A DNA stretch of 64,000 nt from NCBI GenBank assembly GCA_030837965.1, contig JAUTXP010000058.1:62001-126000 (forward strand), written 5' to 3'. Shown one piece after another: positions 2,270 through 54,798 of this stretch (its first letter is position 1; each line of letters opens with the position of its first letter). The DNA comes from Acidimicrobiaceae bacterium. GTDB taxonomy: Bacteria; Actinomycetota; Acidimicrobiia; Acidimicrobiales; JAUTXP01. Both the position numbers and the translations under genes were made by a program. The notes beneath the pieces are model-generated. The model was not told the DNA's origin and did no database searches. It worked only from the letters and a program-made list of their open reading frames with translations.

Positions 2270-2619
2270 GGGGGTGACTGGCTTCGACTTCAGTCATCGA
2301 AGCGGAAGAAGCGAGCCGTGGTCTCCGGAGCCACGTTAAAGAGCCGGAACCAAAAACAAACGCCGACGACAACGTCGCGCTCGCTGCCTAAACCACAGCG
2401 ACGTCAGCCCGGCCCCGGTCCTGCGGGTCGGATGCTGACGCCATCTAGCAGGACTCACCTGACCGGCCTCGTCAACGGGCCGGACGGGGAAAACTCAGTT
2501 GACTGGGGCCTCGCACCGATGCCGGTGACGACGCGAGGCCCGAGACCCTTCCACCGGCTGCGCTCGGAGAAGTCCCGTTGAGAGGCCGAAGGACGCGGGT
2601 TCGATTCCCGCCACCTCCA
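2270..2619 (+). ncRNA. ssrA: tmRNA (transfer-messenger RNA)
   Basis: The tmRNA rescues stalled ribosomes and appends a degradation tag, working with SmpB. The 5' end GGGGGTGACTGGCTTCGAC pairs with the 3' CACCTCC at 2612-2618 to give a 7-bp acceptor stem with one G-U pair. A T-arm (GGTTCGATTCC) precedes it. The tag reading frame runs 2341-2391, EPEPKTNADDNVALAA then TAA. The ALAA end is diagnostic; the resume codon (GAG 2341) is inferred from spacing. CCA is not encoded: base 2619 (A) is followed by CT. The accessory island begins immediately after it. Confidence 0.95.
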
Positions 2620-3238
2620 CTCCGCTCGTCTTGTACCAACACCCCGATGCCGCGGCCGGGGTCAGCGCCGGCCCAGTTTCGCGGGTCGGGTAGCCCAGCC
2701 AGCGCCCGGAACGTGGACAGGATTCGCTGGCGGTGCCCGACCACAAGCTCGTGGACGAACGCCTGGGCGACCATCTTGCGCACCTCGTCCGGGGCGCTCT
2801 CGATAAGCGCCCGCAACTCGGCGTGCAGGGCCGACAACTGCTCTACAGACGGGACGTAGGCAGCGAGGGCCGACCGGCCAACCGCGTCTGCCGCCTCGGC
2901 CCGCCGCGCCCGCAGGCTCCCGGCCTGCCGCCGGAGTTCGTGAATGCGGCCGGCGAACATCTCCTCGGTCAGCCGCCCGTTCTCGAATGCGATCATGTAC
3001 CGCTCGATCGCCGCCTCGACGCGCCGCAGCTCGACGTCGAGCGCGGCCACCTCCTGCTCCGCCCGCTCCGCCGCCTGCTCGCCGTCGCCGGCGGTCGCCG
3101 CGATGGCTTCGCGGACGGCGTGGGGCTTGCCGTAGACATCGAGCAGGGCTGCGAGCACCGCCTCCTCCAACTCGTCCGCGCGGATCGGCTCGGCGTTGCA
3201 CGCGGCGGTGCCGTAGCGGTGGCGCGTCCAGCACCGGG
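2472..3238 (-). pseudogene. Large serine recombinase, C-terminal stump
   Basis: This is the tail of a large serine (phage or ICE type) site-specific recombinase; the catalytic and first DNA-binding domains are missing. What remains is the end of the zinc-ribbon region (ACNAEPIRADELEEAVLAAL) followed by a long charged coiled coil (EQEVAALDVELRRVEAAIER, MIAFENGRLTEEMF) and the tail RQRILSTFRALAGLPDPRN. The 5' part is removed at 3238 by the IS3-like element. There is no stop before the attachment site: the frame runs on antisense through the 3' end of ssrA to 2472. The coding sequence proper should end near 2640. It marks the left end of an element integrated at ssrA. Confidence 0.8.
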
Positions 3239-3284
3239 TGAACCGCCCCGGGTTTTGTGGAGGCTCCACACTCCACGAGAGAGG

Positions 3285-3614
3285 ATGGAGCCCATGGGAA
3301 CGACGAACAAGCACCCCGCCGAGCTGCGCGAGCGGGCGGTGCGGATGGTCCAGGAGTGGCGGGAGGCCCGGGGGCGCCCCGACGGGGGCTCGGCCGAGGT
3401 GGCGGACAAGCTCGGCGTGCACCCCTCGACCGTCCGCGAGTGGGTGCGGCGCAGCGAGGTCGACGGCGGCCGCCGCCCCGGCCTGACGGCGGACGAGCGC
3501 GCCCGCCTGGCCGCCCTCGAGCGGGAGAACCGCGAGCTGCGGCGGGCCAACGAGATCCTCAAGGCGGCGTCGGCTTTCTTCGCGCGGGAGCCCGGCCCGC
3601 GCCTGCCGAGGTGA
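3285..3614 (+). CDS. IS3-family transposase OrfA
   Basis: A 109-residue DNA-binding subunit of an IS3-type transposase. It has the family's N-terminal helix-turn-helix (ELRERAVRMVQEW, then KLGVHPSTVREWVRRSEVD) and the C-terminal leucine-zipper-like helix RLAALERENRELRRANEILKAAS that pairs OrfA with OrfAB. The ATG at 3285 (MEPMGTTNKH) follows GAGAG; the ATG at 3294 is an alternative. Its stop overlaps the GTG that opens orfB in the adjacent frame. It is intact, unlike orfB. Confidence 0.9.
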   Translation: MEPMGTTNKHPAELRERAVRMVQEWREARGRPDGGSAEVADKLGVHPSTVREWVRRSEVDGGRRPGLTADERARLAALERENRELRRANEILKAASAFFAREPGPRLPR

Positions 3615-4547
3615 GCGCCTTCGTCGAGGCGCACCGGGGACGGACCACCGCGGGCCTGCGCTGGGGGGCCGGGCCGGTCTGCGAGGCGCTCGCGGCCGCC
3701 CCGTCCAGCTACTACGCGGCCAGGGGGCCGCCCGCCGTGCGCCCGGCGCCTGCGCGACGAGGCGCTCAGGCCCGAGGTGCTGCGCGTGTCGAGGCCGACT
3801 ACCGCGCCTACGGGGCCCGCAAGGTGTGGCGCCGGCTCAGCCGCGAGGGCCACGCGGCGGCGCGCTGCACGGTCGAGCGCCTCATGCGCGAGATGGGCCT
3901 GGCGGGCCGGGTCCGGGGGCGCAGGGCCCGCACGACCACGGCGGACCCCGCCGCCGCCCGCCCGGCGGACCTGGTGGAGCGCCGCTTCGCGGCCCGCGCC
4001 CCCAACCGCCTCCGGGTGGCCGACATCACCTACGTCGCCACCTGGTCGGGCTTCGCCTACGCCGCGTTCGTGACGACGTGTTCTCGCGCCGGATCGTGGG
4101 CTGGAGGGTCTCCAACACGCTGCGGGCCGACCTGGCCCTCGACACGCGCTCGAGACGGCGGTCTGGAGCCGGCGGGGCGACGAGCTCGACGGCCTCGTGC
4201 ACCACAGCGACCGCGGGGTGCAGTACCTGTCCATCCGCTACACCGAGCGACTCGCGGCCGAGGGCGCGGTGGCGAGCGTGGGGTCCAGGGGCGACAGCTA
4301 CGACAACGCCATGGCGGAGTCGGTCATCGGGCTCTACAAGGCCGAGTTGATCACCGCCCGCGGACCGTGGCGCACTGTCGAAGACGTCGAGCCGGCCACC
4401 CTCGGCTGGGTCGACTGGTGGAACACGAGGCGCCTCCACTCGGCCATCGGCCATGTGCCGCCCGCCGAGTTGGAGGACGAGTGGCTGAAAGAGGCGGCCG
4501 CGGGAGAGACTCGCGAAGGGCGCGCCGCTGTATTGGCAGGCACGTAA
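3611..4547 (+). pseudogene. IS3-family transposase OrfB (rve/DDE), frameshifted
   Basis: Catalytic part of the transposase, spread over three frames. The order of recognisable pieces is SAFVEAHRGRTTAGLRW; a piece readable only in another frame as LRDEALRPEVLRV (about 3740-3785); EADYRAYGARKVWRRL; RVADITYVATW with the first catalytic Asp; then a shift near 4070 to DVFSRRIVGWRVSN, another near 4145, and HHSDRGVQY (second Asp) to SYDNAMAESVIGLYKAEL (Glu). All three DDE residues can be found but no continuous frame joins them. At least four single-base shifts are needed, so it is non-functional unless the bases are wrong. Confidence 0.85.
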
Positions 4548-4579
4548 CGAACAGCCTCCACAAAACCCGGGGCGGTTCA

Positions 4580-4642
4580 GACCTCTTCGACTGCCTGTTC
4601 GGCGACAACCCCGCCGAGCAGCAGGAGGGGGTGGCCGCATGA
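4580..4642 (+). pseudogene. 3' remnant of a gene truncated by the IS
   Basis: Immediately right of the IS an open frame encodes the last 20 residues of a protein, DLFDCLFGDNPAEQQEGVAA, with its stop overlapping the ATG of the next gene (ATGA). The overlap and the strong AGGAGG-type site within it suggest that it once formed an operon with the HTH gene. The rest of the gene was lost on the left side of the IS. Too little remains to name it. Confidence 0.55.
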
Positions 4643-4878
4643 GTCCCCGTGCAAGGCAGCCGCGCCTTTCGCTGGAGCCGCTCGTCGAGTGCTACGGCAA
4701 CGTCAGCACGCTCGCCCGCGCCCTCGGCGTCGAGCGAACCCAGGTTGCCCATTGGCGCAGCGACGGCCTGCCGGTCGAATCGGCTGACCGAATCGCCTGC
4801 TCGCTGGGCAAGCACCCGGCCGAGGTCTGGCCGGACTGGTATGGCCTCACCGTGCTCTTGGACGGGGAGGCCGCGTAA
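4639..4878 (+). CDS. Small helix-turn-helix protein, phage/ICE regulator type
   Basis: A 79-residue protein with a Cro/XRE-like helix-turn-helix: LEPLVECYGNVSTLARALGV then ERTQVAHWRSDGLP forms the turn and recognition helix. The following DRIACSLGKHPAEVWPDWY resembles excision or MerR-like regulators of integrated elements, with aromatic residues closing the fold. The ATG overlaps the stop of the truncated upstream frame and is preceded by AGGAGGGGG. It is probably a control gene of the integrated element; the DNA target is unknown. Confidence 0.7.
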   Translation: MSPRARQPRLSLEPLVECYGNVSTLARALGVERTQVAHWRSDGLPVESADRIACSLGKHPAEVWPDWYGLTVLLDGEAA

Positions 4879-7108: not shown

Positions 7109-7999
7109 ATGACTATGTCGCAGACGGCCCATCCAGGGGCGTACGCGCCGCACCGGCGCGTGCCGTTAAAGGGCCACCCCTCCCTCGGAGAGAAGTGGGT
7201 CCAGAGGCTTCTCGCCGACGACCCCTCGCTGCTGGGGCTCGGCGACCTAGAGGTCCGAGACATGGAGCGGTCGCATCCGAGGGCGGGGCGCCTCGACATG
7301 CTCCTGTACGACCCCGAGACCAGCACGCGCTACGAGGTGGAGCTCCAGCTCGGTCCCACCGACGAGTCACACATCATCCGCACGATCGAGTACTGGGACA
7401 TCGAACGCCGGCGGTACCCGCAGTACGACCATGTCGGCGTGATCGTGGCAGAGGAGATCACGGCCCGCTTCTTCAACGTCATCGGCCTGTTCAACGGTTT
7501 CATCCCCCTCATCGCAGTCCAGATGTCTGCGATCGAGGTGGCGGGGGCGCTGACCGTGGTCTTCACCACGGTCCTCGACCGGAAGGTGCTCGGCGTTGAG
7601 GAGGAGGAAGAGGCCGACGAGCCTAGGGATCGGGCCTACTGGGAGCAGAAGGCGTCGCCTGCGACGCTCGCCATCGTGGACCGCCTGCTCAACGTTGCCC
7701 GCAGCGTGGAGCCGGGCATCGCCCTGAAGTACAACAAGAACTACATCGGCCTGGCCCGCTCCGGCATCGCCGCCAACTTCCTTACGTTCCGACCGAAGCG
7801 GCGCCACGTCATCTTCGAGGCGAAGATCCCTCGCAGCGAGGAGCTAACCCAGCGCCTGACCGACGCGAGCGTGGAAATGCTGACCTACAACTCGCGCTGG
7901 GGCTACTACAGGCTGAGCCTCACCGATCCGGACCTCGCAGAGCACGAGGAACTCCTCAAAGAGCTCGTCGCTATCGCACGCGATACCTACGGCGGTTGA
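7109..7999 (+). CDS. PD-(D/E)XK nuclease-like protein with DUF5655-like C-terminus
   Basis: A 296-residue protein. The N-terminal half carries a restriction-nuclease-like signature: GRLDMLLYD followed by RYEVELQLGPTDESHIIRT, i.e. Asp at residue about 53 and E-x-E/Q about 13 residues later, then YWDIERRRYPQYDHVGVIVAEE. The C-terminal part (LKYNKNYIGLARSG, FRPKRRHVIFEAKI) resembles the DUF5655 module often fused to such nucleases. No membrane segments. It probably acts on DNA; the presence of two HNH genes in the same island is compatible with a defence role, which is inference. Start MTMSQTAH at 7109. Confidence 0.75.
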   Translation: MTMSQTAHPGAYAPHRRVPLKGHPSLGEKWVQRLLADDPSLLGLGDLEVRDMERSHPRAGRLDMLLYDPETSTRYEVELQLGPTDESHIIRTIEYWDIERRRYPQYDHVGVIVAEEITARFFNVIGLFNGFIPLIAVQMSAIEVAGALTVVFTTVLDRKVLGVEEEEEADEPRDRAYWEQKASPATLAIVDRLLNVARSVEPGIALKYNKNYIGLARSGIAANFLTFRPKRRHVIFEAKIPRSEELTQRLTDASVEMLTYNSRWGYYRLSLTDPDLAEHEELLKELVAIARDTYGG

Positions 8000-9227: not shown

Positions 9228-10133
9228 TCAATCAAAGTCCCAACTGATGCCCGGCCCCGGGCCCGTTGGGATTACTACCCGCGTCCCGCTGCCCCCGACG
9301 GCGAAGCACAACCACACCTCGCCGCCTCCCGAGTACGTGTCGAGTAGGTAGCTCACGCCGCCCGTCGTGCCACTGGCGAGCGGATGCGGGCCACCCAGCC
9401 CGTTCCAGCCAGTGGCGCATGCGGCCGCATTCGTGTCGGTCCGGGGCGCGCCGCCGCTGACCGACTGCACGACAACCCGACCCCCAACACTGTCTCCGCC
9501 CCCGGCGTCGATCCTGAAGCACACCCAATTGGTGCCGGGCGCCGCTTGTTCGGAGTAGAGCCGGTGATAGATCCCTCCGAGATAACCCTCGGAGAGTTGT
9601 CCGACAGTGCAGGAGCCGGAGACCGCGCCGGGACCGCCGGCACCGCTCTGCGGCATGTGGATCGTGTCGATGGCGACCCATGTGATGAGGAAGTCCTCGG
9701 TGCTATCCAGGCAGTCGCCACCCCTCGTGGGGTCAGGCGCAAGGATGCCAACTGCCTGGAAGTCGTCGAGGTTGCCGTTCGCATCCCGTACCGCTACGAA
9801 CACGCTTCCGACTGCGTCGAAGTGGAAACCCGCGCCGTTATTGGTGGTGCCGTTGCCGCTAGTGAGCAAGCAAGACCCACCGGACGAGCCGCCGTAGGCG
9901 GTGAACGCGCCAAAGGGGCAGCCGGCGGATTGAGTGATGTTGAAGTACGTATTGATGGGAGAGCCGGGCGGTACGGCGATCCCAGGGGAAATGCGCATCG
10001 ATGCCGGACCCGCGCACACACTCGATGCTGGCCGCGTGCTGGGCGTCGTCGATGCAAGAACCGGCGTGCTGAACATGAGCAGAACCACGCTTGTCAACAG
10101 CCCGCTGGCCAACGACAGCCTCCAAGTCCTCAT
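9228..10133 (-). CDS. Secreted protein with a WVCFR / NAAACAT domain
   Basis: Start MRTWRLSLASGLL at 10133 gives a signal peptide ending near LASTTPST; the frame opens 20 codons further upstream. The first 130 residues are unique. The last approximately 115 residues (from GSCTVGQLSEG through WVCFRIDAGGG, SVGGRVVVQS, NAAACATGW, GPHPLASGT, YLLDTYSGGGEVWLC) are homologous to the C-terminus of the RCC1 protein at 22877-24832. The conserved Cys and Trp suggest a disulphide-stabilised extracellular domain. The function is unknown to me. It lies in the island although its partner lies outside it. Confidence 0.7.
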   Translation of the reverse strand: MRTWRLSLASGLLTSVVLLMFSTPVLASTTPSTRPASSVCAGPASMRISPGIAVPPGSPINTYFNITQSAGCPFGAFTAYGGSSGGSCLLTSGNGTTNNGAGFHFDAVGSVFVAVRDANGNLDDFQAVGILAPDPTRGGDCLDSTEDFLITWVAIDTIHMPQSGAGGPGAVSGSCTVGQLSEGYLGGIYHRLYSEQAAPGTNWVCFRIDAGGGDSVGGRVVVQSVSGGAPRTDTNAAACATGWNGLGGPHPLASGTTGGVSYLLDTYSGGGEVWLCFAVGGSGTRVVIPTGPGPGISWDFD

Positions 10134-10193
10134 GGGCCGTGTATTCGCCGCAACCGGGGTGCCGGCCTTGCAGAAGACTCCAATACCCCCCAA

Positions 10194-10370: not shown

Positions 10371-10432
10371 CACCGGTCGCCGTCACCAAACCCTGAGCGG
10401 CGTGTTCGGCGGGCACAGCGTCAGCACCGGGC
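10371..10432 (-). repeat. Approximately 62-bp repeat, copy A
   Basis: Matches 11351-11412 closely: both contain ACCGGTCGCCGTCACC and GAGCGGCGTGTT, then GGGCACAGCG. On the minus strand both read as the end of an open frame, PVLTLCPPNTPLR here and PVLALCPPNTPLR in copy B. A weaker relative precedes the repeat copy at 13868. Confidence 0.65.
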
Positions 10433-10436
10433 TGTC

Positions 10437-10505
10437 ATGGTTTCGCGGGTCGGGTAGCTCACCCACCGCCCGGAACGTGGACAGGCTTCGCTGGCGGTGG
10501 CGGGC
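10437..10505 (-). pseudogene. Relic of a serine recombinase C-terminus
   Basis: Bases 10441-10499 match 2677-2735, inside the recombinase stump, at 55 of 59 positions by eye. Minus-strand translation gives RQRSLSTFRAVGELPDPRN against RQRILSTFRALAGLPDPRN. Here the frame continues into the 62-bp repeat (HDSPVLTLCPPNTPLRVW) and stops. It is a second, different recombinase tail, presumably from another integration or a duplication. Confidence 0.7.
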
Positions 10506-10547
10506 GAACCGCACCGAGCGCCGCGCCCACGGGGTACGCGGGGGCCG

Positions 10548-10949
10548 CTACGCAACCACTACGACGCCAGTCCCGCGCGCAGTAGACATCGGGCAGTAAC
10601 TATCGGGCACCATCACTAGGCCTCGGGCGTACCCAAAGAACTGGAGCACGACATAAGCAGAACCAGCAACTACCACCGATTCGCCTTCCGTGATGACTAC
10701 CGCACCACAGTTCCCAAAATATGAATAACCCCAGACTCCGCTGCCCGCCGACGGAGTCAACCCAGGAGCACCGGCGCACGTATTGTTCCATTCCTGGGTA
10801 ACAAAGCCTGACTGATTCCCAAGAGTGAGCGGTGGGGAGAACGTGAGCGTGTCGTTCTCGACGCAGAGTTGCCTTGCCTGCGCGCTGGGTTGCGGCAGGA
10901 AGACAGTCGCCGAACACAACATGGCAATGAGCAGCACTCGACGCAACAT
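10548..10949 (-). CDS. Small secreted protein, 133 aa
   Basis: Start MLRRVLLIAMLCSATV at 10949 gives a signal peptide likely cleaved after [10 protein letters not shown] lies just upstream. The mature part has four Cys (LCVEND, NTCAGAP, FGNCGAVV, DSYCPM), suggesting disulphides, and it is rich in Gly, Ser and aromatic residues. No family recognised. Composition and layout resemble the other short exported proteins of the window, for example 42611-43294. Confidence 0.55.
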   Translation of the reverse strand: MLRRVLLIAMLCSATVFLPQPSAQARQLCVENDTLTFSPPLTLGNQSGFVTQEWNNTCAGAPGLTPSAGSGVWGYSYFGNCGAVVITEGESVVVAGSAYVVLQFFGYARGLVMVPDSYCPMSTARGTGVVVVA

Positions 10950-11430
10950 GGAGTCCTCCCGACCCAATCGTCACGATTGTAGTGATTTCATCGCAGTGTG
11001 GCACAAGTGCGAGTGCCTTCGATACCCCCCCAAATGGGGGGAATTCCCTGACCAGATGATCTCGGCAAGCTGCTTCGGTGTCCACGTTGGCTCGATGGCC
11101 GACGTGGCGATCCTGGCCAGTTCCTTTGTGTGAGTCGATCGCCCAGCACGTTAAGTGCGGGACGCCCAGTACCCACGTTCGCCGCCCCGACGCTGCGCGT
11201 GTGGCGTACGCACGTCTCCTGCCCTGCACGGCTCCGAGCTCGCGCCTGAGTTCCTCCTTCGAAATACCCACACATCGAGATCCTGGGCTGGGGGCTCGTT
11301 CATCCCCAACGGGTTTCTCCGGGCGCAGCGTCGAGTTGGTCGGGGGCGGCTACCGGTCGCCGTCACCCGCCCGGAGCGGCGTGTTGGGTGGGCACAGCGC
11401 CAGTACCGGGCCGGGGATCGTCGCTTGGGG
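10950..11430. other. Gene-free stretch before the cassette-like array
   Basis: No supportable gene. It holds a short perfect palindrome around 11024-11040 (CCCCCC-AAAT-GGGGGG type) and repeat copy B at 11351-11412. The first 83-bp element begins at its right edge. By analogy with integrons, an attI-like site or promoter could lie here, but I see no direct evidence. Confidence 0.4.
11351..11412 (-). repeat. Approximately 62-bp repeat, copy B
   Basis: Second copy of the segment at 10371-10432, one base shorter and with about ten substitutions. It ends 18 bases before the first 83-bp inverted-repeat element (11431), so in this copy the two repeats form one composite of about 160 bp. Confidence 0.65.
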
Positions 11431-11513
11431 GGTGTTCGTACAATGACACCCCAGGACCACCAAGCTCTTGACCTGCGGTTTCGCGCGGGGCCGGGTGCCA
11501 TTGTGCGAACACC
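11431..11513 (+). repeat. 83-bp attC-like element, copy R1
   Basis: Left arm GGTGTTCGTACAATGACACC at 11431-11450 pairs with the right arm at 11494-11513 (GGTGCCATTGTGCGAACACC). The 43-base interior contains GACCACCAAGCTCTTGACC. It is the first of a series of elements that alternate with genes to 16.6 kb. Within the arms, CACAAT and ATTGTG occupy the positions that the R'' and R' boxes would take in an integron attC. Confidence 0.8.
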
Positions 11514-11563: not shown

Positions 11564-12448
11564 ATGACACTCCCGCCCCTGGATGCTCCGGACCTCGCGC
11601 CATGGGGGCTCACGGGTGTCGTCGTCGGCACTGCGCGCTCGACCTTCCCAGGCCGAGCGGTCTACCCGGTTCAGTCGGACCAAGGAGTGTTTGCCGCCAA
11701 GGTGTCTCGACGGACCTCGCAACCCAATCCGGGCAGCGAAGACTCGATACGTCTGCTGGAGTACCTCCAGGCGCGGGGGTTGCTCCACGTACCGACGCCC
11801 CTGCGGACTCTCGACGGGCATGCGAGCGCCGCGTCGGGCGGGAGCGACATCACGGTCCTGGAGTTCGTTCCGCGCCCGCTCTACGCCGAGGCGACACCGC
11901 CGGCGTCCGCTTGGAGCGACCTGGGCGCGGCTGCCGCTGCATTGAACGACATCACGGGCTACCCCCGCCGATTCGCGGTCCCGGTGGACGAAGCCCTCGT
12001 CCACCTCCGGGCCCGGTCCGAGCAGGCGGCGTTCGAAAGGCCGTTTCGCGATGCCCTGGCGCGGGCGTCTCAGGTGACCGAGTCCAGTCGGGCGGCGCTC
12101 ATCCACGGTGAGATCAATGAGGCGAACGCACTCCGCCGACACGACGGGACGGTCGTGCTCGTCGACTGGGACCAGGCGGGAACCGGGCCCGTGGCGCTCG
12201 AGCTCGGATACCCCCTGATCATCGCCTTCGTCGATATAGACACGCACCGACTCCACGAGCAGCGAGCAAAGGCTTTCTATGACGCGTACCGAAGCTCCGG
12301 CGGCATCGTTGACCCGCTGGCGACCTTCGCGGCGGCGGTCTTTCATGCTCTGCGGTACATGTGGTTCGCGGACGTCGACAGGCGATGGGACCGAATCTCC
12401 TGGGCGCTCCGGAATGAGTCGCAGTTGCTCGACGTGGTCGCCGGATAG
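11564..12448 (+). CDS. Aminoglycoside-phosphotransferase-like kinase
   Basis: A 294-residue APH/choline-kinase-fold protein. The catalytic loop reads ALIHGEINEANALRR and the metal-binding segment VLVDWDQAGTGP, spaced as in the family. The usual HGD aspartate is Glu here (HGE), a conservative but rare change at the proposed catalytic base. The N-terminal lobe is short (VFAAKVSRRT would carry the ATP-binding Lys). It could phosphorylate an aminoglycoside, a macrolide or another small molecule. It lies alone between repeat copies R1 and R2, as a resistance cassette would. ATG at 11564. Confidence 0.8.
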   Translation: MTLPPLDAPDLAPWGLTGVVVGTARSTFPGRAVYPVQSDQGVFAAKVSRRTSQPNPGSEDSIRLLEYLQARGLLHVPTPLRTLDGHASAASGGSDITVLEFVPRPLYAEATPPASAWSDLGAAAAALNDITGYPRRFAVPVDEALVHLRARSEQAAFERPFRDALARASQVTESSRAALIHGEINEANALRRHDGTVVLVDWDQAGTGPVALELGYPLIIAFVDIDTHRLHEQRAKAFYDAYRSSGGIVDPLATFAAAVFHALRYMWFADVDRRWDRISWALRNESQLLDVVAG

Positions 12449-12550
12449 CGTCGAGTCCTCCCCACAGGCGTCGCCCCGGACCTACCGTCCCCCCACGTCG
12501 AAGCGTCGTGCGCCCAGCGCCAGAGCAGGACCGGGGACGAGTCCGAGCGG

Positions 12551-12632
12551 GGTGTTCGCATGATGACACCCCACGTCCACCAAGCCGCTGACCTGGGTTT
12601 CGTACACGGGCGCGTGTCGTTGTGCGAAGAGC
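12551..12632 (+). repeat. 83-bp attC-like element, copy R2
   Basis: Left arm GGTGTTCGCATGATGACACC at 12551-12570; right arm around 12613-12632 contains GTGTCGTTGTGCGAA and then diverges (GAGC for CACC). The interior keeps GTCCACCAAGCCGCTGACC. It is one base shorter than R1 and R3. It separates the phosphotransferase from the P-loop kinase. Confidence 0.78.
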
Positions 12633-12664: not shown

Positions 12665-13135
12665 GTGGCTACGGCATACCTCGTGCACGGTTTCCTGGGA
12701 GCAGGCAAGACGACTTTCGCCGAAGCGTTGGCGCAGTCATCCGGCGGCATACGTCTGTCTCTAGACGAGTGGTACCTGCGACTGTTCGCCGACGCTCCGA
12801 CCGAGCACCTCGACGCGGCATCGTGGAAGAGGCTCGACGCGATGATGGCCGACATGTGGCCTCAGATGCTTCGCAGCGGCGTGGACGTGGTCTTGGACTT
12901 CGGCTTCTGGACCCGCCCCTCACGCGACCGAGCCCGCTCGGCCGCTGCGGCGGTCGGTGCCGACACCATTCTGTATCTCGTGACGTGTGACGACGCAGTC
13001 GCCCTCGGTCGGTGCTTGGCACGCAACTCGCTTGGCGGACCCAGCTTCATCATCACGCCCGCAGGGTTCGAAGAGATGCGGTCGCGGTTCGAGCCCTTGG
13101 GCCATGACGAGGCTCACGTCCTCGTGGAGACGTAG
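12665..13135 (+). CDS. P-loop kinase (AAA_33 / Zeta-CPT-like), 156 aa
   Basis: A compact nucleotide-binding protein with Walker A GFLGAGKTTFA at residues 9-19 and a hydrophobic strand ending in Asp (VDVVLDFGFW) that suits the second metal- or substrate-binding site. The size and LSLDEWYLRL segment after the P-loop resemble small-molecule kinases such as chloramphenicol phosphotransferase and zeta-like kinases. The substrate is unknown. I chose GTG 12665 (VATAYLVHGFLG); the frame reaches further upstream but that part lies in repeat R2. It fills one unit between R2 and R3. Confidence 0.75.
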   Translation: MATAYLVHGFLGAGKTTFAEALAQSSGGIRLSLDEWYLRLFADAPTEHLDAASWKRLDAMMADMWPQMLRSGVDVVLDFGFWTRPSRDRARSAAAAVGADTILYLVTCDDAVALGRCLARNSLGGPSFIITPAGFEEMRSRFEPLGHDEAHVLVET

Positions 13136-13236
13136 GCGCGCCAGGAACGCGAGGCCGGTCCTCAGCGATCTCCGCCGCGTCGTCGTAACACTGCATACGG
13201 GCGACCGAGGCGAAGCGGCGGCTGGCTTGCAGCGCG

Positions 13237-13319
13237 GGTGTTCGCATAATGACACCCCAGGTCCACTGCGCCGCTGACCTGCGGTTTCGCACGCGGGCCG
13301 GTGTCGTTGTGCGAACACC
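13237..13319 (+). repeat. 83-bp attC-like element, copy R3 (best copy)
   Basis: The most regular copy: GGTGTTCGCATAATGACACC at 13237-13256 and GGTGTCGTTGTGCGAACACC at 13300-13319 are complementary at all positions but two (one of them a G-T wobble), around a 43-base interior. The interior itself holds AGGTC...GACCT, able to form an inner stem. The outer arms include GCATAAT and GTTGTGC in attC R''/R' orientation; GTTGTGC misses the GTTRRRY consensus at one base. Confidence 0.85.
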
Positions 13320-13328
13320 GCCCTTTAC

Positions 13329-13759
13329 TCAGGGCCAGATCAGTTGCTCGATGCCGCCTGGGACGAGTTCGCAGGCCCCACGTCCGCAGGGCCGCCACCG
13401 CACGCGGACGCGCCCCGTCGGGTCGTCGCGTATCGTCTGCTCCGCGATCTCGTACGCCGACTGATCCACGAACCGCCCTTCTAATACGAAGACGATCTCG
13501 TGCGCTGGTTCTCCGTCCAGTTCGAAGATGTTCTCGAGCACGCCGAGCAGCCCGAGGTCGTCGACCTGCTGCGGATCTCGCGGATCTCGCGGACCGCGGC
13601 GTTGGCGGCTCGCTCTCCGAACCCGACGTGTCCGCCGAGAGGTCGCTCGAAATGTCGCCCAGATCCGTCCTCGTTCTCGGACACGAGGATCGCTCCATCC
13701 CTCGGCCGTCGGATGACCACCATCGCCTTGTTGACCTGACGCGACACGTTGCGAGTCAA
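13329..13759 (-). pseudogene. NUDIX hydrolase, one frameshift
   Basis: The N-terminal frame (start 13759) contains AMVVIRRPRDGAILVSEN, PLGGHVGFGERAANAAVREI, the beginning of the NUDIX box G-x5-E-x7-R-E. Just after the REIREI stretch the frame is lost, and the protein continues in a second frame as QQVDDLGLLGVLENIFELDG, EIVFVLEGRF and so on to a stop at 13329. The shift falls inside a 9-bp direct duplication (CGGATCTCG twice, about 13572-13590), a typical slippage site. NUDIX enzymes hydrolyse nucleoside diphosphate derivatives. It is the only unit in the array on the minus strand, and it reads into R3. Confidence 0.8.
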
Positions 13760-13867
13760 TCAGTTGCAGCGCTCAACTCGCTACCTGTCACTGGCATCTG
13801 TCCTGAGCGTCATGTTCGGCGGAGAGAGTGCTAGCGCGGGGCCCGGCAGCGTCGCGGCCGAGTGCGG

Positions 13868-13907
13868 AGTGTTCGCACAATGACACCCCTACGTCCACTG
13901 GCATGAC
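13868..13907 (+). repeat. attC-like element, copy R4 (left half only)
   Basis: AGTGTTCGCACAATGACACC at 13868-13887 and the following CGTCCACTGG...ATGACC match the left arm and interior of R3. The right arm is not recognisable. A degraded relative of the 62-bp repeat precedes it (about 13803-13850, GTTCGGCGG). The copy has probably lost its right end by deletion. Confidence 0.65.
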
Positions 13908-14023: not shown

Positions 14024-15154
14024 GTGCCAATTGTCCACCCACGGCCGACAGAAGCTACTGCCAAGGAGCTGTACGCGAACGCTTTTAGGTGTGCAGCGCC
14101 CGACTGCCAGCAACCGCTCTATCGAGTCGAACCGGAATCGTGGATGCAAACGCTGAACTCGCGGATTGCTCATATCTGTGCGAGAAGCGAAGGGGGTCCT
14201 CGGTGGGATCCGGACATGTCATCCGAGGAGAACCGTTCGCGGACCAACCTGCTGGTGCTATGCCTTGCGCACGCGGCAGAGGTGGATGCCCCCGAGCGGG
14301 TGAATCGATTTCCCGCGGATCTCCTGAAGGAATGGAAGAGGTCACAGCTTGAGGAATTTGATCGAGTACGGCGAGGGTGGGCCTTGAGCGACGACGACGT
14401 AGCGAGCGTTCTCCAGCTCACTCTCGGGTCCAATGCAATAGCCATCGTGCAGTCGGAGGCCGCGCTTGGCGGTGCAGGGGGTGCCGCTCCCGGCGCCGGT
14501 GGGGGTGGCGGAGGCGCTGTTGGGCACGGTGCGATCGCGGGAGATGGTGGATCGGGCGGCGAGATCGTGTGGGTGACCTTACCTGCCGAGGACTTGCCCG
14601 ACTCGATCACGGTCACCGTCGGTCAAGGCGGCGAAACGGGTGTAGACGGTGGCGACAGCAGCGACGGCGGCAACACATCGTTCGGCGATCTCATACTTGC
14701 GCGTGGTGGCAAGGGCGGAAAGGACGCCAATACCAAAATGGCCGAGATGGCCGCTGTCCTCATCGACCGGCTGACGGTAGCCGCGCTGTTCTTCGCGGAC
14801 CACGCTCAGGTGCGCGACGGCTTGCTCTTCGTCTCCGGTGGAGGGTGGGGCCTCTACAACGTCCCCTCGAATGCTGTGATCGCTGGGGCCGTTGTGTTCG
14901 TGCTTGACCTCCTGCCGGGCGACAAGTCTGGCGTTCTCCCGTTGGCCGTTGAGTTGCAGGACCCTGCGGGGCTCTCTCGGTGGGCGTCGCCCTTTGACGT
15001 GGAGTTCGTATCGACGGAGACTGCCGTACGGATGTGCTTGGTCTACCCCTTCGCTACCAACGCGGACGTGGAAGGCCGATGGTCGGCGCGCATCCTCCTT
15101 GAGAGCGGAACAGTGGTTGCAACGCACCACATCGACATTCGACTCGGAGACTGA
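14024..15154 (+). CDS. HNH-like domain + Gly-rich linker + C-terminal globular domain
   Basis: A 376-residue mosaic. Residues 20-95 resemble an HNH nuclease: CAAPDCQQPLYR, SRIAHICARSEGGPRWDP, NRSRTNLLVLCLAHAAEVD. Residues about 145-235 are an almost pure Gly/Ala-rich segment (GGGGGGAVGHGAIAGDGG) as found in tail fibres and structural linkers. The last 135 residues (ALFFADHAQVRDGLLFVSGG, LPLAVELQDPAGL) form a separate domain that I associate with an uncharacterised actinobacterial family. The GTG at 14024 (VPIVHPRPT) is the start. The combination suggests a nuclease tethered by a flexible linker. It occupies the unit between R4 and R5. Confidence 0.7.
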   Translation: MPIVHPRPTEATAKELYANAFRCAAPDCQQPLYRVEPESWMQTLNSRIAHICARSEGGPRWDPDMSSEENRSRTNLLVLCLAHAAEVDAPERVNRFPADLLKEWKRSQLEEFDRVRRGWALSDDDVASVLQLTLGSNAIAIVQSEAALGGAGGAAPGAGGGGGGAVGHGAIAGDGGSGGEIVWVTLPAEDLPDSITVTVGQGGETGVDGGDSSDGGNTSFGDLILARGGKGGKDANTKMAEMAAVLIDRLTVAALFFADHAQVRDGLLFVSGGGWGLYNVPSNAVIAGAVVFVLDLLPGDKSGVLPLAVELQDPAGLSRWASPFDVEFVSTETAVRMCLVYPFATNADVEGRWSARILLESGTVVATHHIDIRLGD

Positions 15155-15251: not shown

Positions 15252-15332
15252 GGCTCGGGTTGTGCCCTTCCAGCCCCACCGAGTTCCTGACCTGCGACGT
15301 TGCGCAGCAAGTAAACCGTCGTGCGAACACCC
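15252..15332 (+). repeat. attC-like element, copy R5 (degraded)
   Basis: The right part, CTGACCTGCG at 15287 through CGTCGTGCGAACACC ending at 15332, is clearly the family sequence. The interior CCAGCCCCACCGAGTTCCTGACC aligns with R1, but the left arm is poorly conserved. It separates the HNH/Gly-rich gene from the DUF4160/DUF2442 pair. Confidence 0.6.
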
Positions 15333-15359: not shown

Positions 15360-15617
15360 ATGCCTCGACTGTCAGCGTTCTACGGCGTCGTCATCTACAT
15401 GTACTGGCGTGATCACTCCCCGCCACACTTCCATGCCGAGTACGGCGACCAGGAAGCACCCATCGTGATCGGCGACGGACGCGTCTACGCCGGTTCGCTG
15501 CCGCCGCGCGCCCTCCGAATGGTCAGGGAGTGGCGCCTGCATCTGGACGAACTTCATCGGGCGTGGGCGCTCGCGTCCAGCCGTGAGGACCCCGGTACCA
15601 TTGAGCCGCTGCCATGA
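15360..15617 (+). CDS. DUF4160 protein, toxin-antitoxin-like pair member
   Basis: An 85-residue protein with the DUF4160 signature: YGVVIYMYWRDHSPPHFHAE, IVIGDGRVYAGSLPPRALRMV and EWRLHLDELHRAWALA. DUF4160 genes are usually paired with DUF2442, as here, and the pair is often regarded as a candidate toxin-antitoxin or addiction module; the biochemical role is not established. The gene overlaps the next by four bases (ATGA), so translation is likely coupled. Pairs of this kind are frequent in integron cassette arrays. Confidence 0.85.
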   Translation: MPRLSAFYGVVIYMYWRDHSPPHFHAEYGDQEAPIVIGDGRVYAGSLPPRALRMVREWRLHLDELHRAWALASSREDPGTIEPLP

Positions 15618-15892
15618 AGAGAACCATCAGGATTCCCAAGGTCACCGCCGTAGAGGTACAGCCGCCGTACGCGCTGCGTCTCACGTTCGACGACGGCATG
15701 ACGCGTGAATTGGACTTGGCCTACGAACTCTGGGGTCCCATGTTTGAGTCGTTGAGGGACCCGGCATTCTTCGCTCAGGTCGTCGTCGAGCATGGCACCG
15801 TCGTGTGGCCGAACGGGGTCGACCTCGACCCGTTGGTCCTCCACGGCGACTTCGAGCCCGCTATCTCGCAGAACCAGCAACAAGTCGTCTAG
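15614..15892 (+). CDS. DUF2442 protein, partner of DUF4160
   Basis: A 92-residue protein: KVTAVEVQPPYALRLTFDDG, ELDLAYELWGPMFESLRDP, and WPNGVDLDPLVLHGDFEP. These are the hallmark strands of DUF2442. Its ATG lies in the stop of DUF4160. No DNA-binding motif is evident. A truncated IS481-like element begins 2 bases after the stop, so the 3' end of the unit has been overrun. Confidence 0.87.
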   Translation: MKRTIRIPKVTAVEVQPPYALRLTFDDGMTRELDLAYELWGPMFESLRDPAFFAQVVVEHGTVVWPNGVDLDPLVLHGDFEPAISQNQQQVV

Positions 15893-16384: not shown

Positions 16385-16557
16385 GCAACTTCGACCTCAG
16401 GGGGCCGCAGGGACCTGCGCCGGAACAGCCTGCGAGCGCGTAGTTTCCGGCAGCGTCATGGCTCGCAGGGCGCGCGCTATCAGTCACCGGTCGCGATCTC
16501 CGACCGGAGAACCGTGTGGCGATGCGCAAGGCGCAGTGAAGGCATCGAGGCCGCCGG

Positions 16558-16640
16558 GGTGTTCGCACAAGGACCTCCCAGGGCCACTGAGCCGCTGACC
16601 TGCGGCTTTTGCGCGGGCAACTGTCGTTGTGCGAACCACC
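16558..16640 (+). repeat. 83-bp attC-like element, copy R6
   Basis: Left arm GGTGTTCGCACAAGGACCTC at 16558; right arm around 16620-16640 contains CTGTCGTTGTGCGAACCACC. The interior keeps GGCCACTGAGCCGCTGACCT and GCGGCTTTTGCGCGGG. Outer parts still pair; the inner arm has diverged. It is the last clear copy in the series. Confidence 0.75.
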
Positions 16641-17010: not shown

Positions 17011-17065
17011 CTTCACGCGGTGCGGTCCGACTCCGTAGATGGACCGGTAACAGCGATGATTGTAC

Positions 17066-17689
17066 GTGGCCTTCTCGCCGAAGAGACTCGTACGGCAGAG
17101 CTACAACCGAATCGCCGATTCGTACGCGGACGCCGTTCCCGACCCCGAGGGACCGAGGGCGAAGTACATCCGCCTGTTAAGGGATCTCGTCCCGGCGGGA
17201 AGACGAGTGCTCGATCTCGGCTGTGCCACCGGTGCACATGTGACTCGCTACCTGGCGGAGGACTTCGATGTTGTCGGAGTCGACATCTCGGAGCGGAGCA
17301 TCGCCCGGGCGACGGAGACGGTCCCAAGGGCAACGTTCGTCGTGGCCGACATGGCAACAGTCGCCTTCGCGCCCGGCTCCTTCGACGCGGTCGTCGCTTT
17401 CTTCTCGCTCATCCATGTGCCACGTGCCGAGCACGCCGTCGTTCTGCGATCGGTGCACGACTGGCTGCGCCCGGGCGGGGTGTGCATCGTGACGATGGGC
17501 GCCGGGGGCGGGGGCGAAGCTACCGGCACATTTCACGGCGTCGAGATGTACTGGAGCAGCTGGCCCGCGGCCGACAGTCTACGAATGGTTGCGGACGCAG
17601 GCCTTGGGCTCCTCTCCGCAACCGAAGAGCACGAAGAGGAGAACGCGACGCTGGTGTCGCATCTTTGGGTGGTCGCCCGGCGCCCTTAG
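17066..17689 (+). CDS. Class I SAM-dependent methyltransferase
   Basis: A roughly 207-residue methyltransferase with motif I VLDLGCATGAHVTRYL, acidic residue at the end of strand 2 (VVGVDIS), ATFVVADMATVAF (motif III region) and FDAVVAFFSLIHVP (motif IV). The C-terminal strand pair (GVCIVTMGAGG and ATLVSHLWVVARRP) completes the fold. It probably acts on a small molecule. The start is uncertain: GTG 17066 (VAFSPKRLVRQ) or TTG 17060. It is intact, next to a broken relative on the other strand. Confidence 0.85.
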   Translation: MAFSPKRLVRQSYNRIADSYADAVPDPEGPRAKYIRLLRDLVPAGRRVLDLGCATGAHVTRYLAEDFDVVGVDISERSIARATETVPRATFVVADMATVAFAPGSFDAVVAFFSLIHVPRAEHAVVLRSVHDWLRPGGVCIVTMGAGGGGEATGTFHGVEMYWSSWPAADSLRMVADAGLGLLSATEEHEEENATLVSHLWVVARRP

Positions 17690-18529: not shown

Positions 18530-18705
18530 TGATCGGGCTTTTCCCGGCCGTCGAACAGCTTCCTTGTTCTTGTGCGAAATGCCACGGCCGAATCTTCGCT
18601 CGGATCACTCGTGCCCTCGATGCATTTGATTCGCACGAACATCGAGGCGGATCGCGGAACGGTCAGCAGCAGCGTCCAAACCCCACATGCCGACAGGTCG
18701 ATACC

Positions 18706-25381: not shown

Positions 25382-25531
25382 GCGAACTCCCCCTTGTGGT
25401 GCCCGCTTCGATTGTTCGACGCGGGTCATGGTTGGTCCTTCAATTGACGTTGCTGATATTGCAGATGTTCGTTTCTGCCATCCGCCCATCCCTGCCCACT
25501 CCCCCCGCTCGGGCCCTTCCCCCGCCCCCCT

Positions 25532-25586
25532 CCGCTTCTGGGCACCTTTTCTTCGCCCTGGGGCAAGAAAAGGTGCCCAGAAGCGG
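25532..25586. terminator. Strong 22-bp perfect hairpin
   Basis: CCGCTTCTGGGCACCTTTTC plus TT (25532-25553) is fully complementary to 25565-25586 with an 11-base loop. It lies 60 bases after the last gene of the eight-gene operon on the minus strand, so it most likely ends that transcript. A run of G5C units (25595-25629) lies between the operon's stop and the hairpin. Confidence 0.75.
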
Positions 25587-25644
25587 AAACCCACGGGGCG
25601 GGGGCGGGGGCGGGGGCGGGGAGCGGGGGTTAGGCGGGTGGGGG

Positions 25645-43458: not shown

Positions 43459-43513
43459 ACGGGTGCAAAGGGGGCAAAGAGCCGATCGGTCAGGCTTGGC
43501 GTGACCCTCCCAT

Positions 43514-53579: not shown

Positions 53580-53786
53580 TCAGGTGGACTGCGTGATGGG
53601 CGCCGTCTGCTCGGCGTTGGCGTAGGCCACCGAGTTGTCCGAAGCCACGTTCAGGGCCACCGCCGCATTCACCGGGGCGGCCAGGTTGGCGTTGATGAGG
53701 GACATGGCCTCGCGGTCGGGCAGCTCCTCGCCCGTCTCCTCGGCCAGCTCCTCTTCGGTCAGGCCGTTCTGCTTCTCGTCTGCCAT
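53580..53786 (-). CDS. ELPDREAMSL-leader peptide, paralog 1 (68 aa)
   Basis: MADEKQNGLTEEELAEETG, then EELPDREAMSLINANLAAPV, NAAVALNVASDNSVAYANAE and QTAPITQST. The acidic leader and ELPDREAMSL are nearly identical in four tandem genes; the second half keeps NAAxAxNVxSDxSxAxAxAxQ. There is no Cys and no signal peptide, so export would depend on the leader and the adjacent protease. Its ATG overlaps the stop of the preceding diverged peptide gene. Confidence 0.75.
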   Translation of the reverse strand: MADEKQNGLTEEELAEETGEELPDREAMSLINANLAAPVNAAVALNVASDNSVAYANAEQTAPITQST

Positions 53787-54028
53787 CAGTTCGCTCCTTG
53801 GTCGGTGTCCGTCTTGCGGGTGATCCGGGTATGGCGGCCGTTCTGCACGATGTCGAGGTGCTGGCTGCTCGACGCGTGGGTGGTCGTGTCGGACTGGGCC
53901 ACGTTGACGGCGGCCACGATGTTGACGTCGTCGCTGCCGGTGCTGCCGTCGCTGTCGCTGCTGCCGTTGCTCCGGGCCTGCTCGACTGCGTCGCGCACCC
54001 GCCGCCTCACCATGCGCCCGATGTCCAT
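53786..54028 (-). CDS. Diverged small peptide, 80 aa, within the peptide set
   Basis: MDIGRMVRRRVRDAVEQARS then a Ser/Asp-rich linker and DDVNIVAAVNVAQSDTTTHA, RHTRITRKTDTDQ. It lacks ELPDREAMSL but keeps an N-I-V-A-A-V-N-V-x-x-S-D stretch like the NAAVAANVLSD of its neighbours. The basic N-terminal helix is new. It may be a chaperone, leader carrier or diverged paralog. ATG 54028 is preferred over the upstream in-frame start at 54070. Confidence 0.55.
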   Translation of the reverse strand: MDIGRMVRRRVRDAVEQARSNGSSDSDGSTGSDDVNIVAAVNVAQSDTTTHASSSQHLDIVQNGRHTRITRKTDTDQGAN

Positions 54029-54113
54029 GGCCGTCCTTTGCGCTCGTCGGTCCTTGTCCTGCACACGCACTCGCCCTGCGGGAGGTCCGCCGCCCTCCCG
54101 CAGGCCGCGGGTG

Positions 54114-54329
54114 TCAGGTGGACTGGGTGATGGGTGCCGTCTGCTCGGCGTTGGCGTAGGCCACCGAGTTGTCGGACAGCACGTTGGCCGCCACCGCGGC
54201 GTTGATCGGTGCTGCGGCGTTGAGGTTGATGAGGGACATGGCCTCGCGGTCGGGCAGCTCCTCGCCCGTCTCCTCGGCCAGCTCCTCGTCGGTCAGGGCC
54301 TTGTCCTGGTTCTGGTTCTGGTCGGTCAT
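54114..54329 (-). CDS. ELPDREAMSL-leader peptide, paralog 2 (71 aa)
   Basis: MTDQNQNQDKALTDEELAEE, TGEELPDREAMSLINLNAAA, PINAAVAANVLSDNSVAYAN, AEQTAPITQST. The C-terminal half is almost identical to paralog 1, so the two arose by recent duplication. A purine-rich GGAG-type site precedes the ATG (AGGAGCGAC). Confidence 0.78.
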   Translation of the reverse strand: MTDQNQNQDKALTDEELAEETGEELPDREAMSLINLNAAAPINAAVAANVLSDNSVAYANAEQTAPITQST

Positions 54330-54337
54330 GTCGCTCC

Positions 54338-54547
54338 TTAGGTGCCCTGCTGAATGGGCGTGTTCTGGGCCGCGTCCGCGTAGGCCACGGCGCCGTCGGA
54401 CAGGACGTTGGCCGCCACCGCGGCATTCACGGGGACAGCGATGTTGGCGTTCACGAGGGACATGGCCTCGCGGTCGGGCAGTTCCTCGCCCGCCTCGGCC
54501 TCGAGCTCCTCCTCGGTCATGGCCTGGTCCTTGTTCTGCTCGGTCAT
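54338..54547 (-). CDS. ELPDREAMSL-leader peptide, paralog 3 (69 aa)
   Basis: MTEQNKDQAMTEEELEAEAG, EELPDREAMSLVNANIAVPV, NAAVAANVLSDGAVAYADAA, QNTPIQQGT. The leader is conserved; the tail differs (NTPIQQGT for TAPITQST), as expected if the C-terminal half is the variable product. AAGGAGCC precedes the ATG. Confidence 0.78.
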   Translation of the reverse strand: MTEQNKDQAMTEEELEAEAGEELPDREAMSLVNANIAVPVNAAVAANVLSDGAVAYADAAQNTPIQQGT

Positions 54548-54588
54548 GTGCAGGCTCCTTCGGTGCTCTGGTGGTCGGTGCGCAGGGG

Positions 54589-54798
54589 TCAGGTGCTCTG
54601 AGTGATGGGGGCGGTCTGATGGGCGGTGGCGGCCGCGGTCGAGTCGTCCGACAGGACGTTCAAGGCCGCGGCTGCGTTGATGGGCGCAGCCACGTTGCCG
54701 TTGATGAGCGACATGGCCTCGCGGTCGGGCAGCTCCTCGCCCGCCTCGGCCTCGAGTTCTTCGTCTGTCAGGGCCTGGTCCTTGTTCTGGTCTGTCAC
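54589..54798 (-). CDS. ELPDREAMSL-leader peptide, paralog 4 (69 aa)
   Basis: MTDQNKDQALTDEELEAEAG, EELPDREAMSLINGNVAAPI, NAAAALNVLSDDSTAAATAH, QTAPITQST. It is the first peptide gene of the set in transcription order, with GGAGG just upstream of the ATG. The promoter should lie between it and the hairpin at 54891. Confidence 0.78.
   Translation of the reverse strand: MTDQNKDQALTDEELEAEAGEELPDREAMSLINGNVAAPINAAAALNVLSDDSTAAATAHQTAPITQST

Follow-up and report, generated by a model that had tools for sequence, protein, structure and literature searches.

Genes and features of the locus

The window analyzed here, the whole 64,000-nucleotide stretch of an Acidimicrobiaceae contig, contains a tmRNA gene, remnants of a large serine recombinase (LSR) and a series of short genes separated by repeated elements. 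In the following list, P and P' denote half-sites of the attachment site discussed below.

2270..2620, + strand: tmRNA gene, its 3' end the integration target (ARAGORN; Rfam RF00023)
2621..2660, - strand: attL-like junction, a P' arm relic GGTGTTGGTACAAGACGAG adjoining the tmRNA 3' end, laid out as in the LSR/tRNA junctions of relatives
2662..3245, - strand: LSR, C-terminal part only (Zn_ribbon_recom; tblastn 47%)
about 3245-4575: insertion sequence truncating the LSR (ORFs with HTH_Tnp_1 and rve_3)
4639..4878, + strand: small HTH-like protein (HTH_35 below cut-off), homologous to one near the LSR in genomes G079 and G411
10371..10439, - strand: LSR C-terminal tail (62-bp repeat, copy 1), P arm lost
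10440..10499, - strand: relic of an LSR body end (STFRAVGELPDPRN), in frame with the tail
11351..11460, + strand: cassette end, comprising tail (minus-strand reading), P half-site and core CCAC
11455..11513, - strand: P' half-site (long form) of the next cassette, which with the P arm makes up the 83-bp element R1
11564..12448, + strand: cassette gene 1, phosphotransferase of the APH family (Pfam)
12498..12632, + strand: P|P' junction R2, tail degenerate
12674..13135, + strand: cassette gene 2, AAA_33/zeta-toxin-like kinase (Pfam)
13167..13319, + strand: P|P' junction R3, tail degenerate
13783..13897, + strand: cassette end R4 (tail and P), with no P' found after it
14024..15154, + strand: cassette gene, glycine-rich-domain protein (Pfam)
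15276..15331, - strand: lone P' half-site, weak (E 0.009)
15360..15892, + strand: cassette gene pair, DUF4160 and DUF2442 (Pfam)
16486..16639, + strand: P|P' junction R5, tail degenerate
17060..17689, + strand: cassette gene, methyltransferase (Pfam)

The HTH-like protein, whose homologues near the LSR in the two relatives lie at L045 5767-5948 and L124 5856-5988, is a candidate regulator or recombination directionality factor. Pfam matches were absent for window positions 13325-13698, for the island genes at 7109-7996 and 9231-10193, and for positions 2393-2959 of locus L010.

Several other repeats occur in the window. An imperfect palindrome (TGTTCTTGTGCGAAATGC..GCATTTGATTCGCACGAACA) at 18569-18650 precedes a P-loop kinase gene and by eye could be a cassette junction that has diverged. 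A near-perfect palindrome (CTTTTCCACAGCA..TGCTGTGGAAAAG) is present four times, at 43513, 49654, 59331 and 61119, and by eye is unlike the LSR sites. There are also four copies of a 194-nt repeat at 53580-54782, the other three 75-87% like the first, and a large inverted repeat at 25490-25628 with 69-nt arms, 1 nt between them and 72% complementarity.

Coding character of the 62-bp repeat

A sequence-only reading of the window had reported that positions 10441-10499 match the 3' end of the recombinase and are joined to a 62-bp repeat, a second copy of which is joined to R1. Both observations hold. The recombinase match extends over 60 bp (10440-10499 against 2676-2735; 93.3% identity, E 2e-18), and the source of this end is indeed a recombinase, the translation of 2620-3299 matching Pfam Zn_ribbon_recom. 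The two repeat copies (11352-11411 against 10372-10432) are 86.9% identical over 61 bp (E 2e-12), and the second lies 18 bp from the first 83-bp element, which has its arm at 11431; these 18 bp are part of the same conserved block, the extended element matching 11351-11460. Both matches are far beyond chance. The minus-strand translation given in that reading for both copies, PVLxLCPPNTPLR, was also reproduced. Searches of the same genome found further copies on contigs C1 (three), C6 and C74, and degenerate copies lie at window positions 12498, 13167, 13783 and 16486. Wherever the 62 bp is complete in this genome, it is followed after ∼18 bp by the arm GGTGTTCGYACAATGACACC of the cassette element, and in two copies from G378 the spacer is longer.

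From the core outward, the half-site at the far end and the 62 bp encode V-x-L-G-C-H-C-T-N-T-P … G-P-V-L-A-L-C-P-P-N-T-P-L-R-x-G-D-G-D-R-stop, and related tails were found in ten genomes (G000, G489, G457, G395, G079, G378, G138, G606, G602 and G591). The predicted frame is open to a stop directly after the final R in 21 of 32 P ends, compared with 2 and 7 of 32 for the other two frames, counts that apply to ends gathered by hand from searches, partly with a model containing the 62 bp, and to a stop-after-R criterion fixed only once tails had been seen. Three of the 21 (R2, R3 and R4) are degenerate, and the 11 ends that lack such a reading include three of the five in G079. The synonymous fraction of the tail is 0.442, compared with 0.186 (sd 0.042) for shuffled columns, a value reached by none of 1000 shuffles; the six LSR-less cassette ends give 0.421 compared with 0.185 (sd 0.049), again reached by none of 1000. 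By these codon-position statistics and the frame joins described below, the 62 bp is protein-coding and encodes the C-terminal tail (…GPVLALCPPNTPLRAGDGDR*) of an LSR clade in the Acidimicrobiales. The same two results overturn the idea that the repeat is a noncoding site flank antisense to the recombinase.

It could still be argued that the tail is read by coincidence and that the 62 bp is a noncoding accessory recombination site through which the LSR happens to read. Retention of the 62 bp in cassettes without an LSR would fit such a role, as would the resemblance by eye of its middle to a second degenerate arm (GTGTTCGGCGGGCACA). We consider this improbable given the strength of the codon-position signal and the shared position of the stop codon in ten genomes.

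The recombinase clade and its attachment site

The intact LSR of G079, a member of the same order with Pfam Resolvase, Recombinase and Zn_ribbon domains, was used as query and has matches at E<=1e-60 in 20 of 298 genomes of the order searched. The intact relative at locus L045 carries PF00239, PF07508 and PF13408 above cut-off, the domain set of large serine recombinases, and of the copy in the window only the C-terminal part with its zinc ribbon is left (2688-3245, 47% identity to the intact LSR of a relative, E 1e-38, tblastn). At E<=1e-40 no close LSR was found in phages (9 records, at most 36.4% identity) or in plasmids (2 records). One IMG/VR relative (43%) lies at tRNA-Leu, with no tail seen.

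ARAGORN places a tRNA at 14 of 26 LSR loci, the remaining 12 being cut short or having a partial tRNA or none, and in all 14 the tRNA 3' end faces the LSR 3' end in convergent orientation. The arm stands before the tRNA end, as in the tRNA-Val example GGTGTTCGCGCCATGACACCTTC|GGTGGGCC, and the motif GTTCG is present in this P' arm at 12 of the 14 loci, with TTTCG at one and neither at one. The LSR remnant in the window abuts the tmRNA 3' end in the same layout, with its frame shifted there. Judged by this recurrent position, the arm of the cassette element is a serine-integrase half-site.

In most printed loci the integrated LSRs have one frame running through the arm (VRAMTPSV or similar) and on into antisense tRNA (…GLEPPTP…). 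The order of parts in the unintegrated gene is LSR body, P' half-site, core, P half-site and 62-bp tail, so that its frame reads body – VRAMTPSV – core – LGCHCTNTP…GDGDR* and is interrupted by attP about 36 codons upstream of the stop. An attP inside the LSR gene is best documented by a natural pair, comprising the attP form (L070) and an integrated form at tRNA-Arg (L079). These are identical at 513 of 600 positions before the arm (85%) and at 30 of 33 through arm and core, then at only 26 of 77 (unrelated), L070 entering the inverted arm and the tail past the core and L079 entering the tRNA. The L070 locus stops 165 bases past the LSR match, short of a visible stop codon. When P' was joined to P by script at the core, for G457, G395 and those two of the five G079 P ends that have intact tails (the other three lack such a tail), one open frame ending in ...GDGDR* or ...GNGDR* resulted in four of four cases. 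Contig C74 of the window's own genome has LSR body end, P', core, P and tail in series, which by eye form a single open frame once shifted by one base, although its LSR-body relic is weak (27 of 33 bp alike; as protein E 1.7). The compared junctions show that integration at tRNA or tmRNA 3' ends swaps the tail for an antisense-tRNA peptide, leaving tail and P at the far end of the inserted element.

At window positions 10371-10499 the translation is STFRAVGELPDPRN-HDSPVLTLCPPNTPLRVW-stop, in which the end of an LSR body runs in frame into the tail and no attachment site separates them. We take this to be a relic LSR 3' end from which attP was lost in frame, by its sequence the decayed equivalent of the C74 junction. 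In the neighboring cassette end, 11351-11513, the site is still intact. The proposal in the sequence-only reading that the cassette element derives from the attachment region of a serine recombinase is thus borne out, but not its placement after the gene, as the element sits inside the reading frame. Recombinases that end in LCPPNTPLR and are then followed by the element are not to be expected, since integrated copies have antisense tRNA instead of the tail and the att site precedes the tail.

The core bases vary with the target. Ends with a CCAC/GTGG core occur where the target is tRNA-Val (G457, G079 and G489), and in G395, with tRNA-Glu as target, GCAG is found in both P' and P. That the core follows the target fits the required identity of crossover bases in attP and attB. 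CTGC cores were found in three other P ends (G138, G602 and G489 C23), and one-base departures in G489 C55 (tRNA-Lys; GTGG at the tRNA, GTGA at P) and in C74 (GTTG).

Cassettes without a recombinase

A cassette opens with a core and a long-form P', followed by the gene, the tail, P and again a core. The 83-bp element (R1, R2, R3 and R5, all of which belonged to the P' training set) is the P|P' junction between successive LSR-less cassettes. Comparison of loci further shows short LSR-less cassettes with the same ends standing in arrays or singly at tRNA genes. A lone ∼0.67-kb one-gene cassette (GYD domain) at tRNA-Val on G489 C31 has the order tRNA – core – P' – gene – tail – P; no empty site was found for it, the flanks beyond the tRNA being unconserved in the other 9 of the 10 family genomes searched. 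The C1 array is also next to a tRNA-Val gene, with no P' arm at the tRNA. Further cassette genes encode PIN, NUDIX, PemK/MazF, DUF5615, CcdA-like, DUF433 and HTH_3 proteins (Pfam). At L011 484-530 and L126 1670-1720 a motif, GAAACCGCAGGTC, follows P in direct orientation; it is inverted inside the long P' form.

The evidence on cassette mobility consists of sequence footprints, namely shared cassettes with different neighbors. In the window's genome, two PIN cassettes match at 92.8% identity over 513 bp up to the core, where they part; the opposite ends of both fall beyond the contigs. A DUF5615/DUF433 cassette common to G079 and G411 is 82% identical over 842 bp with different neighbors.

An alternative is that ordinary LSR islands inserted successively at the same tRNA or tmRNA gene and later lost the recombinase and most of their cargo, so that the array reflects decay rather than a cassette system, as in the accretion of SCC elements. 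LSR relics do lie in or beside arrays (window 2662-3245 and 10440-10499; the weak one on C74), the intact LSR scores best against CcrB in NCBIfam, though below cut-off, and a 4.4-kb element in which no LSR was detected stands at tRNA-Lys in G489. This element (L117 3685-8112) has P' and tail+P ends and by eye encodes a P-loop kinase and a large permease-like ORF. Decay of islands sits poorly with the compactness of the cassettes (about 0.6-1.6 kb, one or two genes), with the lack, from R1 to R5 of the window, of any LSR match at E below 1, with the coding-like tail kept at cassette ends that have no LSR, and with the cassette common to genomes in which its neighbors differ. We regard successive accretion as unlikely, though a good deal less so than an incidental tail.

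A true integron cassette array in an actinobacterium, with a tyrosine integrase (IntI) and attC sites, would likewise combine palindromic sites with a series of short genes that include toxin-antitoxin, NUDIX and kinase genes. By-eye comparison with the attC consensus showed no fit to RYYYAAC/GTTRRRY boxes at the expected ends, however, and the arms are those of the LSR. No IntI was found at E<=1e-10 in the genome (97.9% complete, 88 contigs), in which the only Phage_integrase match at that threshold is an Xer-like protein with 67.6 bits compared with an integron-integrase cut-off of 265; the attC/integron reading was rejected on this ground, and its probability is very small.

Distribution in the order

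A model of tail plus P has matches in 17 of 397 genomes of the order, several of them weak and two (G466 and G342) with no convincing arm. Only 8 of these 17 have an LSR at E<=1e-60: seven are among the 20 LSR-positive genomes, and the eighth is G591, one of three among the remaining ten with an LSR at E<=1e-30 and the only one of these below 1e-60. On the four contigs bearing both (G079:C10, G395:C256, G411:C148 and G457:C17), P ends point away from the LSR in every case. A pattern scan of genome contigs returned 9 stretches, three of which were inspected for the element, found in Acidimicrobiales RYN_50 and Actinomycetota 0813_bin2 and not in DBS1-2; the remaining six belong to Acinetobacter (five) and Lewinella (one). 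Raw pattern matches in viral contigs numbered 2.

Interpretation and proposed mechanism

We conclude, with a probability of roughly 0.8, that an LSR targeting tRNA/tmRNA genes and carrying attP in its own frame has the 62-bp repeat as its C-terminal coding tail, and that the 83-bp element is an attP-like junction between cassettes using the same kind of site. Counting against this explanation, the long P' form has ∼49 bp between arm and core, where LSR sites have ∼21-23 bp. The arrangement suggests gene capture in the manner of integrons but by another class of enzyme, and the best reading of it is a cassette system driven by a serine integrase that alters its own C-terminus upon integration. 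The anatomy of this system is well supported by sequence comparison; that cassettes move in trans and that the tail has a role are predictions from it.

We predict that an LSR would move cassettes in trans, as circles carrying a P|P' junction, and that this junction would recombine either with a cassette junction already in place or with the end of a tRNA gene. The swap of tails may change or switch integrase activity, and a cassette landing beside an LSR could restore a tail to it; positions 10371-10499 of the window would then be a joint of this kind between LSR and cassette that has lost the site in frame. We tentatively put forward, at somewhat less than even odds, a serine-recombinase counterpart of the integron in which tail-bearing single-gene cassettes are captured at tRNA/tmRNA ends, the integrase losing its tail on integrating and regaining one from a joining cassette, so that capture and integrase state would be coupled. 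The array in the window may now be immobile, because the only LSR of the clade in its genome at E<=1e-60 (on C80) has a different arm and a different target, tRNA-Arg. Integron cassette clusters without an integrase likewise exist.

Integrons, in which gene-cassette capture is known, rely on a tyrosine recombinase. If correct, the reading given here would be a route to the same architecture that uses a serine recombinase and operates at tRNA/tmRNA genes in uncultured actinobacteria. An attP within the integrase gene, with exchange of the C-terminus, is also a testable idea for how serine integrases avoid reversing themselves, and the sites (54-bp attP, tRNA-end attB and target-fitting core) could yield new serine integrases for genome engineering.

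Comparison with known systems

In the titles and abstract openings listed by our searches of open PMC papers, we found described neither an in-gene attP that exchanges the C-terminus of an integrase nor cassette capture by a serine recombinase. Integrons are tandem arrays of short cassettes that hold one or two genes, have a recombination site at their end and for the most part share an orientation; they are rich in toxin-antitoxin genes. The arrays described here resemble them in all of these respects but differ in having a serine recombinase, double-strand attP-type sites, a tRNA/tmRNA-end target and cassette ends that encode the C-terminus of the integrase.

SCC elements accrete in tandem, are many kb in size, carry ccr genes and target rlmH. 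PMC6222049 describes ECC as having a large serine recombinase, SCC-like insertion and 50-bp att sites. The likeness lies in these features and in the nearest NCBIfam models to the intact LSR, which are SCC recombinases, all scoring below the family cut-off (CcrB 159 of 900 bits, CcrC 120 of 900 and CcrA 90 of 700), so that it does not classify as ccrA, ccrB or ccrC. In contrast to SCC and ECC, the targets here are tRNA/tmRNA genes, with the window copy at tmRNA and 14 of 26 relatives at tRNA genes rather than at rlmH, the cassettes are single-gene and LSR-less, and attP lies inside the recombinase gene.

Two other systems place a recombination site in a gene. Archaeal SSV-type suicidal integrases, as presented in PMC8371274, are tyrosine recombinases with the site in the integrase gene, which is split on integration into halves called inactive there. 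An att site inside the integrase gene is likewise indicated here by the L070/L079 pair and four joins, but the enzyme is a serine recombinase whose catalytic body stays whole, only the tail being exchanged. Integration-dependent immunity in mycobacteriophages such as BPs involves, according to PMC9262239, an attP in a coding gene, a tRNA target and a C-terminus changed on integration, the attP-bearing gene being the repressor and the integrase a tyrosine integrase. The LSR clade shares the attP in a coding gene, the tRNA target and the change of a C-terminus, but whereas BPs combines a repressor gene with a tyrosine integrase, the gene here is that of the serine integrase itself.
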